Shown here: positions 27,556 to 44,225 of the stretch, piece by piece
Position numbering within the stretch: the stretch's first letter is position 1
Layout: each line of letters starts with the position of its first letter
Assembly: GCA_025526935.1 (NCBI GenBank)
Contig: JAHLKD010000028.1
Coordinates: 62,001-126,000 of the forward strand
Length of the DNA stretch: 64,000 nucleotides
From: Cladochytrium replicatum
Lineage: Eukaryota > Chytridiomycota > Chytridiomycetes > Cladochytriales > Cladochytriaceae
Direction: 5' to 3'
The notes under the pieces: model-generated
What the model was told of the DNA's origin: nothing
The model's database searches: none
What the model saw: the letters and a program-made list of their open reading frames with translations, nothing else
Translations under genes and position numbers: made by a program

Positions 27556-27892
27556 AAGCAATCAATTTGATCCAAGTACTATTATATTAAATCAAATTGA
27601 TAACATTCAGCGGCCTCCACTGTTTGCTTGCCGTTAATGCTGTTCAGATACAATTCGATAAAACTTACAATTCAGACATATCACCGTCATCATCTATTCC
27701 CTGATGAATTGACAAGGTGTCGAGCGCACCGAGTGCCTCTGAAAAGAAGTCCTATACAAAAAACATTAGTTAGCATGGTTTATCGCTATTCTGTGACAAA
27801 TCATACAGATGCACGTCTTTGGTTGCGCTTTTCGGGTGGAAACTTCTTCGCTACAATAGTTGCCTGTTGGGAAAATGAGACACATGTTCATA
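27556..27892. other. Intergenic between convergent genes
   Basis: 3' flanks of CMC4 and the PARP-like/B-box gene. An inverted repeat ATCAATTTGATCC / ATCAAATTGAT lies near 27558-27601 and could form a hairpin. Otherwise nothing recognisable. Confidence 0.45.
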
Positions 27893-30228
27893 TCAAGAGT
27901 TTTTGATTACTGGAAAGTTTGGTTGGGGATCAGGAGCGTAGGGTTGTGTTGTGTACGTTGCACCCCTAGTTGGGACTCTTCCTGGACCGCTTTGTCTTGG
28001 AGACCCAGGCATTCCTGTGATGCTTTTGGCATACCCAGCCATTGGAGCACCCATGTTGCTCAAACCAGCCAATCCACCACCTCCAGGTGAAATCGGAGAT
28101 GTTACTGTGCTTGACATTATACTTCCTACTGGACCCGACCCGTTCGATCTTGCCGGAGTCGTAGTAACATATGCTGGGCCAGGGTCCTGTACAACTGTTA
28201 TACCGCCAGTCACCTGCCAAAACCAATCAGAATGAAAAAGCAATTGATGATAGGCGATTACTGCGACGATTACTGCGACAACTCACTTTGACATCAAGCT
28301 GGACGTCAATTCCGTCCCGAAAGAATCTGAAGTCATGCAACTCTGACCGGTACTGCTGGTTGCGAGCCCATGTGAAGAGGAAGTGAGTCGCATCGCCGGT
28401 CTGAATGTAGCGAATGAAATTTTCCACTCTGTCGACTTCACCGATCTGTCTCTTCAGCTCGAGCTCGTCTCCAAGCAATATATCGAGCTATACGAAGTTG
28501 TTAGCATATGAGTAAAGCTTACATGTTTCATGCTCACTTTCGTATTTGTGATGTGCTTCAGCTCAGCCAGAGCTCGTTTATATATTTCTTCAATGTGTGT
28601 CTCGACACTCGCAGCCATTTTCTCCACCGCTTTTGCCCGCGAATGTATTGCAGCGATCTGGTTGTTGATCTCTGACCGTCGGCTTTGGAAAACAGGATCA
28701 TGCTGAACCAGAATAAGAAAAGAGATATTTGACCAAACAATCGTTACACACCGTCAGTGCTTCTTGAAGAACCGCTTGATAGGCCTCCGTGACGCTGACT
28801 AGCTGATGCTTTGCTGAGTCACCATTGGCATGGTTGCCTACCATTTTGCAATACACGCAAACAGGAATATGGCATTGGGAGCAGAAGAACTCGACAAGTT
28901 TATCCGTATGGTGGCGACAAAATCCGAAGACGTCTGTGCCCTTTCCGATGGGTGTTCTCACATGCCTGCTTGCCAGCTTGGACGAGTGCAGCTGAGTGTC
29001 GCATTTGTTGCACAGATGGGCTGCATCAGCTGCACAATGGACAGTTGCTTCCGCCTGCTCGCAATTCTCACACTTTGCTCTCTGGGGCAAAATTTAGAAG
29101 AGCTTCGAGTAGCCGATTGGACAAGTGATGCTCACCTCTCTTGCTTTCATTTCTTTCGCTGGATCAAATTCATACTGCACAAGGTATTGAGGTAGGATCT
29201 CGAAATTTCTAAACATTAGACTGCGTTGAGAGATATGCGAGACCATGTACCTGAGCAGAATTTTTGACATAGTAGACATGGCGGTATTCATCGCTTGACT
29301 CTCCTGTTTGAGAATGATCTTACATAGAAATGAGATACTGTCTGAAATGCAATAAAATGGCGAACCTTTCAGATAAAAGCTATCATATCCTTCTGGAACT
29401 GGCTCCCGGTCTGCCGTAATTGCGTCATCACAAACAAACGCTCGTCCGACTCCTATCTTGCACACCAATGCGCGATGAATTATCTTCTGAGGTTGCTGCG
29501 GGATCACAGGAGCTCCAGATACGACCAATGAGCATTTCGAAATGTCCACCAGAACCAGACAAATCACCTTTATCACGTAATTGACGCAGAGAAGAGCCCA
29601 CAACAAAAGTCATTCCACTAGCTGTGCCGCTCATCAATCCGCCGCTAACCCCAGCTGTACTTCCTTGCGGGGTGGATTGAGTTGCGACTTGCTGCTGAAC
29701 TGCAGAACCTCCATTTGATGAAGATGAGACGACGGAACTGGGTTTGAACTGAAATCCCCTGCGGATGACTTCTTCTTCTGTGCTTGATCCCCCCAGTTGC
29801 GAAACATCTGTCCACGACGTGAGTGTGAGAATATCCTTTAGGATGGATTTAAGGATTGATTAAAACCGATGAGTTTGTTAATATGCCATAATTCCTAACC
29901 TTGCATCGTTTCTCGAATTGAATGGAGATGTGAGGGTTCGAGATGGCATGAGCTGTCACAATTCGAGCTGTGGATGCCTTCAAGGTAAGCTGTAATCCAT
30001 ATTCCAGGTAAGCGTATTCCGGAGTGGTCGGGCTAAGTTGCGTTCGTCCAATCTTCTCTGCCATGATTCGAGTTTGCTTGGCTCGATACACGCCAGTTTC
30101 CAAGTTTGAGTCCACCACGTCAGCTCGGGCACGCGAACCAATTTACCCCAGTTTGGCAAGTCTGTGTTTCCCAATGGACAGACCAACCCGGTGAGTTTGC
30201 GAGAGGACGAATCGAGGGAGAAGCTCAT
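27893..30228 (-). CDS. PARP-like ADP-ribosyltransferase-fold protein fused to B-box zinc finger and coiled coil
   Basis: A multi-exon gene from ATG 30228-30226 to TGA 27895-27893. N-terminal part: MSFSLDSSSRKLTGLVCPLG, a helical block (about 30110-29900), then SSTEEEVIRRGF and a Ser-rich loop. The middle part matches the end of a PARP catalytic fold: IIHRALVCKIGVGRAFVC, VPEGYDSFYLK, then across introns EYRHVYYVKNSAQ joined to ILPQYLVQYEFDP. A B-box zinc finger follows (RAKCENCEQAEATVHC, CDTQLHSSKLASRH, then HTDKLVEFFCSQCHIPVCVYC), then coiled-coil helices (KAVEKMAASVETHIEEI) and a Gly/Pro/Ser-rich tail. The usual catalytic His-Gly and the Glu before the YxxxQ-like strand are not evident, so it may be inactive or mono-ADP-ribosylating. 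The layout is TRIM-like with an ART domain in front. The join near 30110 and that near 29520 are the least certain. Confidence 0.72.
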
Positions 30229-41043: not shown

Positions 41044-43289
41044 CTAAGGTGCCAAAAAAACAGGTGAGTAATAAATAATGAGAAAAGAAAACGTTAAAGA
41101 TCCACAAATGCAGGGCCAAAGAGGGAGTCTGGAGGAGAAACTTCTAATGGCAGAGTGAAGCCAAATCTTATGGAGACAACGAAAAACTAGATACCACGGT
41201 GCAAGATTCGCTGGGTTGACAATGCGAAGTGGACGAAGGCTATCAATTGCAACATCAAGCGGAAGTTGTAAAACAGGAACAGGAACAGGAGGCAACAATA
41301 GGTCAAGACGCAAACATTCTGAAACATGAGATCTAGAGAGAGTTGCAGTGCGGCAGTGACAACACTGCTTGCGGGGGTGATAAAACAAACGTCCAAGGCG
41401 ATACTGCAGAAGCCTCAAGATTGACGAAATAGGGAAGCATGGAGGAGCAATTGCTAGCGCATGAGGGTGTGCAGATGCAAGGGGAGCAAAGCTAGCAGCT
41501 ATAGAACCATAGGCAGATGAGGCTACTTGGTGAAAGTGATTTGCGATAACATCAGAAGGTTTGGGAACTACAACATTTGCAGCCGGGAAGAGGAAGTGAT
41601 TGTTGAAAGGGACAGGAGAACAACGAAAGTGCTTTCCCTGGTGAAGAAAGAATGACAAAATAGAGTGAACCATATCAGGGGCATCATCATCCAGCCAACG
41701 TTGAAACATCTGAAACTGCAGATATTGAAGCGGAAACTGAAGGTCAGGAAACTTAAAAAACAGTAAAACCCCAGCAATTGAAGTAGAAAATGAAAGGCGA
41801 AGAAATTGACACAAACATTGGTGAATAAAAGTCCGAACTGGTTTGCACACAGCAACAGAGGGAAGAATAAAATATAAACCAAATTCAAGCGTAGGTCGAA
41901 TAAAAGACAAAAACAAATGACGAACCACAACCAGAGAATGAGAACCAAACATCCTTGAAAAAGAAAGCAAAGCATCCAAAGTAAGTGCAAACAAGGCCAA
42001 ATCATCTGCAAATAAAAAGAATTATATCGTGGTTTGGCAGGATGAAAGAGTGTTATAGGTGGGGCAAATGGTCGGAGGAGCCCAGGTAGAGGATCAAGAA
42101 AAGTGATATAGAGAAGTGGACTGAGAACAGAACCTTGAAACAAACCTCTAAACAAATCAAAAGCATCTGAAAAACAATTTGCAACAACCACTCTGGAAGA
42201 ACAAAAATCAAACAGAGACTTCAAAACAAAAACAAATGGCAACGGTACTCCCCTAGAAAGAAGCTCAGCCCAAAGAATTGCACAATTTGTGGTGTCATAA
42301 GCTGCTTGAATATCTAAAAGACCAGCAACCCAAGGAACCTTGGCATTAGACGCACGGGAGATACATGCCTGAAGACCAAAAACACATTCCATTCCCGAGC
42401 GGTGTGACTGAAATCCCGCATGGGCAGCATCAAGTGGGCGTTGAGACGTGATAGCAGAATAAAGATGTGGCAACAAAGCTCGCTCGAAAATTTTTCGGGC
42501 AACACACGAAAGAGTAATGGGGCGATAATTAGTAATATCACCACGCGTACCACGTTGCTTCCACTCTGGGTGCAAAAGCCCAAGATTCCATGAAGTGGGT
42601 GTAAGACTACTGCGAAAAATGGACTGAGAAAGTTGCAAGAACAATGGAGCAAGAATAGCTGAAATTGGGCGATAAAGTTCTGCAGGCAGACGATCATGAC
42701 CCGGGGCAGACTCCAAAGGGCAGTCCCTAATAGCTAGAACAAAAGCTTCAACATCCAATGGCAGCTGAAAATCACACAGAACAATTGAAGGTGAAACTGG
42801 GTCAGCAGCTTGAGCATTGTAGACACTAGCAAAATGATCAGAATATTTGGCTAGCAGCTGAAAATCACACAGAACAATTGAAGGTGAAACTGGGTCAGCA
42901 GCTTGAGCATTGTAGCCACTAGCAAAATGATCAGAATATTTGGCTAAAGACTGAGGATCAAAGTCTAAACCATTAGCTGAAGTACGAAAGTTAGCACAGC
43001 GCCGAGCATGAGACACATGTTTCAGAAGAGAAGGCACTGATGAAGAACTAGGGTCATCAAAAAAATTTGCTTCTGTCTTACTCCTGTGTGATCTCAGAGC
43101 TGATTTGAATGCTTTGTGACTATCTCGTTGGCGAGTTCTTAGAAAAGGAAGAAGAGGGTCAGAAGAATTGTGGAGCAAGAGGGAATAATAGTCACGGAAT
43201 GCTGAACGAGCCTTACTACGCAACAAAGCAATCTCAGGGGGCAAAGGAGTGGTCGCTGGTGCTCTACGACGAGGTGTTGGTGGTCCCAA
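41044..43289 (-). pseudogene. LINE reverse transcriptase with frameshift before the FADD box
   Basis: Reverse transcriptase blocks are clear: ESAPGHDRLPAELYRP, ITNYRPITLSCVARKIFERA, AHAGFQSHRSGMECVFGL, VAGLLDIQAAYDTTN, and FRGLFQGSVLSPLLY. The catalytic box appears as FLFADDLALFAL near 42010 in the next frame, so one shift separates it from the N-terminal part. Downstream is a thumb-like and C-terminal region with CCHCRTATLSRSHVSEC. An 87-bp in-frame tandem duplication near 42775-42950 repeats LAKYSDHFAS through LCDFQL. The enzyme would have primed reverse transcription at nicked target DNA. Not functional as it stands. Confidence 0.9.
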
Positions 43290-43291
43290 TG

Positions 43292-44225
43292 TCAGAACTG
43301 CTGCTGCCTCAACAAAATCAATTCAAATGCGGAATCAATTGCTCCCTGGGCCACTGCACGAGAAAGAGAAGTCCCCACAGGGACCTGAAGTGGTTCCAAT
43401 GCTGCTGTTAGCGCCTCTGATGTTGGAGGAAGCAGAATCTTAGCAGTTTCTCTGTGCGACTTACGAATAACTTCATCCTTTAACAATCGGAGATTCCAAG
43501 AAGGTAGAGGAGGAGGCACAGTGGCCTGAGGATCTGGGCCAGCTAAAGAAAATGAACAGGTCACTGCAAAATGGTCTGAAGGATGGGGAGCCATAGACTG
43601 GGGTTGATCATGCACTAAATAAGAGGAAGCTGTCACATAAGTAGAAGCAAAAAACAAATCAATAATTGAACTCCCTAAGTGGGAACGAAAAGTTGGGCGA
43701 CGAGCTGAAGAAGAAGCTGGGACAACCAATGAAAGTGAGTGGGCTGTAAAAAAAGGAAGAAGTGCTCTGGCACGGGCATTAGTAACATGATCACCAGTGC
43801 TCTGAGTTCTAAAATTGAAGTCACCCATCAAAACTACTGGTGTATCCGAATTCGAAACAAATTGAGGAAAATCAGATAATGCACACAAACAGTCTTCCGC
43901 AGTCCAACGTGGGGGAAAATAAAATCCACCAATCACGACCTGACGAAACCTAAACCACAAACCAAACCCAGAAGGAACTGATGCAATCAACCTAAATTGA
44001 TAAGTACTGCAACGATGTGGGTTAATAAGAAGAGCAACACCAGATGCCAAAGGAGCGTCTGGTGGAGGACGAGAATCAAACAACAAATACTCAGAAGAAA
44101 CACTGTCTAAAGTTAACTGATGAGTTTCTGTTAAACTAAAAAATGAAGCTGATGAGTAACAAGCCAAGCAAGTAAATCTGAAAAATCCAGAGGCAAACCT
44201 CTACAGTTGAAGGTTCCAGAACAAA
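43292..44225 (-). pseudogene. LINE APE-type endonuclease domain, frameshifted near its start
   Basis: The start GTFNCRGLPLDFSDLLAW (about 44210) lies one frame off from the main part. The main part shows SLTETHQLTLDSV, ALLINPHRCSTY, GGFYFPPR, PVVLMGDFNFRTQS (catalytic Asp and Asn) and PHPSDHFAVTCSF (catalytic Asp-His). These are the hallmarks of the APE endonucleases that nick the genomic target of LINEs. The break falls at a T-run (about 44137), so a homopolymer error is possible. Confidence 0.85.

Follow-up and report, generated by a model that had tools for sequence, protein, structure and literature searches.

Identification of a PCR4-like gene in a zoosporic fungus

We found in Cladochytrium replicatum a gene whose closest relatives of known structure are TgPCR4 and TgPCR5 (PDB 9ya0), two proteins of the Toxoplasma preconoidal rings. 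The gene occupies positions 30064–27801 on the minus strand of the window, the 64,000-nucleotide stretch of DNA analysed here (contig C28:62001-126000 of a 50.5 Mb genome in 198 contigs), and its corrected model comprises ten exons encoding 590 residues. We consider it probable (roughly 0.7) that the product belongs to the PCR4/PCR5 family and, as its fungal representative, is a structural scaffold that builds rings or plates, likeliest at the zoospore flagellar apparatus. The genome contains matches to the fungal-type families Chitin_synth_1N (7) and Fungal_trans (24), and to the ciliary families IFT57 (6, five of them on C97), PACRG-type (8, on C116, C19 and C61) and B9-C2 (8, on C40, C4, C52 and C73); among 14 prokaryote control genomes, the IFT57 model gave a below-cut-off signal in three, and the other four models in none. 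We take the first two families to mark fungi and the latter three to mark cilia, and on this gene content we read the host organism as a zoosporic fungus.

Gene structure

The exon ends were fixed by aligning the window gene with a duplicate gene on contig C6. Exon 1 (29900–30064, minus strand, as are all the others; residues 1–55) opens with the start codon at 30064 and aligns to the N-terminus of TgPCR4 from residue 23 on, while exon 2 (29568–29835, residues 56–145) contains a Ser/Gln/Gly-rich insert and is devoid of His-Gly. The PARP-like stretch begins in exon 3 (29366–29512, residues 145–194; ALVCKIGVGRAF...GYDSFYLK), which is preceded by a GAG acceptor. It runs through exon 4 (29251–29318, residues 194–216; DHSQTGESSDEYRHVYYVKNSAQ), where Val208 takes the catalytic Glu position and the DHSQTG motif is present in both copies despite differing DNA, and ends in exon 5 (29136–29198, residues 217–237; ILPQYLVQYEFDP), also preceded by a GAG acceptor. 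Exon 6 (28752–29081, residues 238–347) encodes two B-box zinc fingers (PF00643, with matches to CONSTANS and TRIM B-boxes), the Cys/His residues of which are 241, 244, 253, 261, 264, 269 and 277 in the first set and 292, 295, 304, 307, 312, 315, 321 and 329 in the second. Exon 7 (28538–28702, residues 348–402) is helical and coiled-coil-like, as judged by homology and by eye, and exon 8 (28287–28487, residues 403–469) contains the remainder of the helical stretch, aligning to TgPCR4 up to residue 527. A Gly/Pro/Ser-rich tail follows in exon 9 (27911–28213, residues 470–570), and exon 10 (27801–27863, residues 571–590 and the stop codon) supplies a basic C-terminus that lies outside the interval first annotated.

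The initial annotation had joined GYDSFYLK, the YYVKNSAQ-ILPQYLVQYEFDP block, a B-box and a coiled coil into a single chain; one chain, on the minus strand, with a helical stretch at the last place, is confirmed by the minus-strand frames and the C6 comparison, but both annotated ends had to be moved. At the annotated start, 30228 (MSFSL...), the corresponding C6 stretch carries an indel and lacks a GT donor, and the annotated end, 27893, is intronic, the last exon being 27863–27801. The MSFSL start was rejected because it is not conserved in C6, whereas the ATG at 30064 is and all 55 of the 55 exon 1 residues are identical. An alternative intron with its donor at 29601 was dropped after the same comparison.

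Homology to Toxoplasma PCR4 and PCR5

Searched against the PDB, a profile of the two copies matched TgPCR4 with an E value of 2.2e-54, collinearly in two stretches (profile positions 14–208 and 211–461), and TgPCR5 with 3.7e-33, the next best being plant CONSTANS B-boxes (4.7e-13); TRIM63 was also matched (9.3e-5). Both halves contribute to this result: the N-terminal half alone matched TgPCR4 (2.1e-13), and the C-terminal half alone matched TgPCR4 (8.5e-32) and TgPCR5 (1.2e-30) ahead of the CONSTANS and TRIM B-boxes. The N-terminal half of TgPCR5 was left unmatched in the PDB searches with the N-terminal half or the two-copy profile. In the reverse direction, all four matches of TgPCR4 (a query lacking some residues and a loop) in the C. 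replicatum genome fall in the two copies. An alignment of the four sequences has 46 invariant columns, 14 of which are B-box Cys/His. TgPCR4, a single chain of 603 residues, matches the two halves one after the other, and they therefore form a single protein. The combination of a PARP-like half with B-boxes, initially thought to be a layout not described before, is not new, as Toxoplasma PCR4, the structure of which has been solved, possesses it. The surprise is the presence of the PCR4 layout in a flagellated fungus rather than the layout itself.

In the available part of PMC12819142, PCR4 and PCR5 are described as homologous proteins, two heterodimers of which sit at the core of every preconoidal P2 ring repeat (46 repeats estimated), and their role is given as structural, as part of the ring. 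The available part of PMC12663574 adds that deletion of PCR4 or PCR5 yields mature parasites that have no rings and do not start gliding, and that daughter cells lacking Pcr4 nevertheless start to assemble rings.

B-boxes and the helical region

B-boxes were the only Pfam family above the cut-off (PF00643, E 2.8e-13), and they occupy two stretches, so that the domain had been called correctly at first but its number is two, not one. The C-terminal half also matched TRIM63 (E 9.8e-5), TRIM3 (E 0.0067) and MID1 (0.0072) in the PDB, with the TRIM3 match extending beyond the B-box into the helical region. Of the TRIM-style organization originally proposed, the B-boxes hold and the helical region is putatively TRIM-like; a RING is absent: three Cys (54, 162 and 172) precede the first B-box, and no RING family was returned by the Pfam search. 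An AlphaFold2 model of exon 6 alone had a mean pLDDT of 51.3 and was set aside. Seven B-box matches were found in the genome, four in the two copies and three in further stretches elsewhere. A duplicated protein (L045 on C24 and L046 on C9) has a single B-box, after which comes a conserved KAGTWFLERSKYIPMRL block.

The similarity of the B-boxes to plant CONSTANS and TRIM63 would also fit a cytosolic or nuclear TRIM-like regulator that has no role in a ring or flagellum, the PCR4 match then reflecting old ancestry with a changed role. We consider this unlikely, as the homology to PCR4 spans the N-terminal half and the helical region as well, and because there is no RING, ubiquitin ligase activity is not expected.

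Duplicate copy, selection and splicing

A whole-genome search with the joined chain gave 14 matches, eight at the window locus and six on C6. The two proteins are identical at 542 of 589 aligned residues, and their differences number 45, 15 and 213 at the first, second and third codon positions. The dN/dS values are 0.038/0.94 (NG86) and 0.043/0.76 (YN00), a ratio of about 0.04–0.06. Because most codons keep their amino acid and the differences fall mostly at silent positions, we conclude that purifying selection has acted; the codon-position test is pairwise, and so it names neither copy as the constrained one.

The acceptors of introns 1–4 are AAAG, GAG, TAAG and GAG in the window copy, taken as such because the reading frames require them, and GTAG, AAAG, ACAG and AAAG in the C6 copy. 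The GAG acceptors of introns 2 (29567–29513) and 4 (29250–29199) are possibly weakened relative to the AAAG of C6, and the window copy is without seven residues adjoining intron 2 that C6 carries; on account of these two features, it may be poorly spliced. The same features would be expected of a duplicate in decay that has ceased to yield a correct product, but the frame is intact across ten exons and the differences between the copies, although counted pairwise, lie mostly at third positions, which makes decay distinctly improbable.

The duplication extends beyond this gene. Positions 1–62000 of the window form a duplicated block with G000:C6:408270-461402 at ~78% nucleotide identity, with order and direction nearly all kept (blastn; 34.6 kb aligned, summed over partly overlapping pieces). 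Further duplicate pairs in the genome include a PACRG-type protein, CLU and the single-B-box protein (C24/C9), and the block together with these pairs suggests a whole-genome duplication or a hybrid origin. Additionally, positions 41047–44200 on the minus strand of the window hold reverse-transcriptase and endonuclease-like ORFs of the non-LTR retrotransposon type, as recognized by eye. The 38.7–50 kb interval that includes them has no blastn counterpart in the compared stretch of C6.

PARP-like stretch and catalytic residues

A profile–profile comparison (hhalign) of the family with six PARPs aligned family columns 158–234 (residues ~152–228) with a score of 34.6, a P value of 1.1e-4 and a probability of 56%. 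Among 300 column shuffles the score was at most 18.5, so none reached 34.6, and the reversed control gave 13.0. The comparison gave a score of 38.8 with four PARPs after the plant pair was left out (P 2.6e-5, probability 75%) and 35.0 without tankyrase (P 9.3e-5); P was 0.0068 against tankyrase alone and 0.14, not significant, against RCD1 and SRO1 alone, and a first comparison with three PARPs gave P 0.0016 over 17 columns. Given the P value of 1.1e-4 and the 0 of 300 shuffles, residues ~152–228 resemble PARPs beyond chance. A plain HMM of the six PARPs scored 6.8–8.9 bits on three family members, which is not significant against 8.8 bits for the best of 900 shuffles, and therefore does not decide the question. 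The Pfam PARP family was recognized at 11 places in the genome, all of them away from the two copies, and did not match the chain, whole or in parts, even at E values of up to 10; the first, donor-binding part of the N-terminal half aligned to PARPs by neither HMM nor hhalign. The resemblance to a PARP fold proposed in the initial annotation is thus supported for the end of the fold and not for the whole N-terminal half, on which Pfam is silent and the HMM not significant.

The classical catalytic residues that the initial annotation did not find evident are indeed missing. His-Gly is absent before the first B-box (residues 1–237) in both copies, and eight positions ahead of the conserved Gln both copies have Val (Val208), TgPCR4 has Asp and TgPCR5 has Leu; at this position tankyrase and two PARPs of the C. 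replicatum genome have Glu, and PARP12 has Ile. PARP1-like catalytic pieces at L025 (C78) and L027 (C42) keep both His-Gly and Glu, so PARPs with the classical residues coexist in this genome with the presumably inactive relative. Judged from its residues, a catalytic role of the PARP-like domain is unlikely; in our reading, the domain is ART-like but does not catalyse, and it forms part of a scaffold that has no RING. The idea of an atypical mono-ADP-ribosyltransferase whose active site has been rearranged and whose B-box and helical half take it to its substrate could draw on the profile similarity over residues ~152–228 and on the Ile of PARP12, a named mono-ART, but is very improbable in view of the missing His-Gly, the donor-binding half that cannot be aligned to PARPs, the equally Glu-less TgPCR4 and TgPCR5, and the structural reading published for PCR4/5 (available part of PMC12819142).

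Searches for relatives elsewhere

The family searches covered C. replicatum as the one eukaryote genome. In viral contigs, the single-protein query matched 5 stretches and the alignment query (A2) 40, and in prokaryote genomes the alignment query matched 74; none was confirmed as a relative. In the literature covered, outside which most subscription papers fall, we found no paper joining preconoidal and chytrid, and none with B-box alongside two or more of conoid, zinc finger and preconoidal; the top titles listed included none on a PARP-like plus B-box layout in fungi. The available part of PMC13358043, which deals with 394 reference flagellar proteins in fungi, makes no mention of B-box, PARP, zinc finger or Toxoplasma, which speaks against the proposed reading. 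A fungal PCR4/5 member thus seems undescribed in the literature covered; unannotated ones may well already be present in sequence databases.

Proposed role and a candidate partner

As a fungal PCR4/PCR5-family scaffold, the protein would work in three parts. The N-terminal half would be a catalytically dead ADP-ribosyltransferase-like domain that binds proteins as a rigid module, two chains would pair through the helical region, and the B-boxes would help neighbouring dimers to join into a ring or plate. To our knowledge, fungi have no conoid, and flagella are common to zoosporic fungi and the ancestors of apicomplexans; for these reasons, the likeliest site would be the zoospore flagellar apparatus (basal body, transition zone or root). 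The flagellar apparatus is also the probable source of part of the apicomplexan apical complex.

In Toxoplasma, the Clu-type neighbours of PCR4/5 in the P2 ring are CGP and PCR10. A protein on the minus strand of G000:C24:271001-280000, which is not one of the CluA-like pair found on C42 and C107, shows PH (23.3 bits, below the cut-off), CLU, eIF3_p135 and TPR matches. Without its TPR part, it has four PDB matches, led by CGP (E 0.001) and PCR10 (E 0.013), the next having E values of 0.4 and 0.62. With the TPR part, it matched 19 sequences, of which 14 are kinesin light chains and the others two ZMYND12 chains, an EF-hand protein, CGP (E 0.003) and PCR10 (0.0089), and neither CGP nor PCR10 was retrieved by a shorter query whose start was wrong. 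In the reverse comparison, for which CGP and PCR10 segments had been selected because they match C24, two C24 pieces cover nearly all 110 residues of the CGP segment and the CluA-like loci at best 17. One PCR10 segment scores higher with C24 (23.9 bits versus 17.3 for the CluA-like loci), and the other with the CluA-like loci (43.9 and 43.1 bits versus 26.9). We regard the C24 protein as a lead towards a putative CGP-like partner. Tentatively, and with the odds against it, we propose that the PCR4/5 ring core is of ancient eukaryotic origin, that a CGP/PCR10-type Clu-TPR partner accompanies it in flagellated fungi, and that apicomplexans re-used it for the ring with which gliding and invasion start.

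Significance and comparison with known systems

The preconoidal ring has been studied as a device for parasite motility and invasion. The fungal relative with its shared domain order suggests that part of the Toxoplasma apical ring may be older than the parasites. If it is a true homologue, a core subunit of this ring either predates the alveolates or has passed from one lineage to another. A zoosporic fungus would offer a non-parasitic setting in which to test the original job of PCR4/5, and Val, Asp and Leu at the Glu position form a natural set for following how a PARP-like domain becomes part of a scaffold.

Among known systems, TgPCR4 (TGME49_201220; PDB 9ya0 chain AB; 603 residues) is 33% identical over part of the alignment and shares the order of the N-terminal block, the LLCQVGVGRS, YDS and SSQVLPRFFLLFEMDP blocks, the two B-boxes and the helical region. 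It differs in having Asp where the fungal protein has Val, and the fungal Ser/Gln-rich insert and Gly/Pro-rich tail are without an aligned counterpart in it. TgPCR5 (TGME49_242320; PDB 9ya0 chain AA) shares the end of the PARP-like half, the B-boxes and the helical region, but it is 1,073 residues long and has Leu at the Glu position. It also bears an extra C-terminal GTPase-activating domain, as stated in the available part of PMC12819142. TRIM63, TRIM3 and MID1 have B-boxes in common with the fungal protein, and the TRIM3 match extends into the helical region after them; unlike TRIM proteins, the fungal protein has no RING and carries a PARP-like half instead. Finally, although the profile comparison with them alone is not significant, plant RCD1 and SRO1 offer a parallel in use: their PARP-fold domain is described as inactive (PDB name of 5ngo), and the same kind of use is proposed here for the fungal domain.
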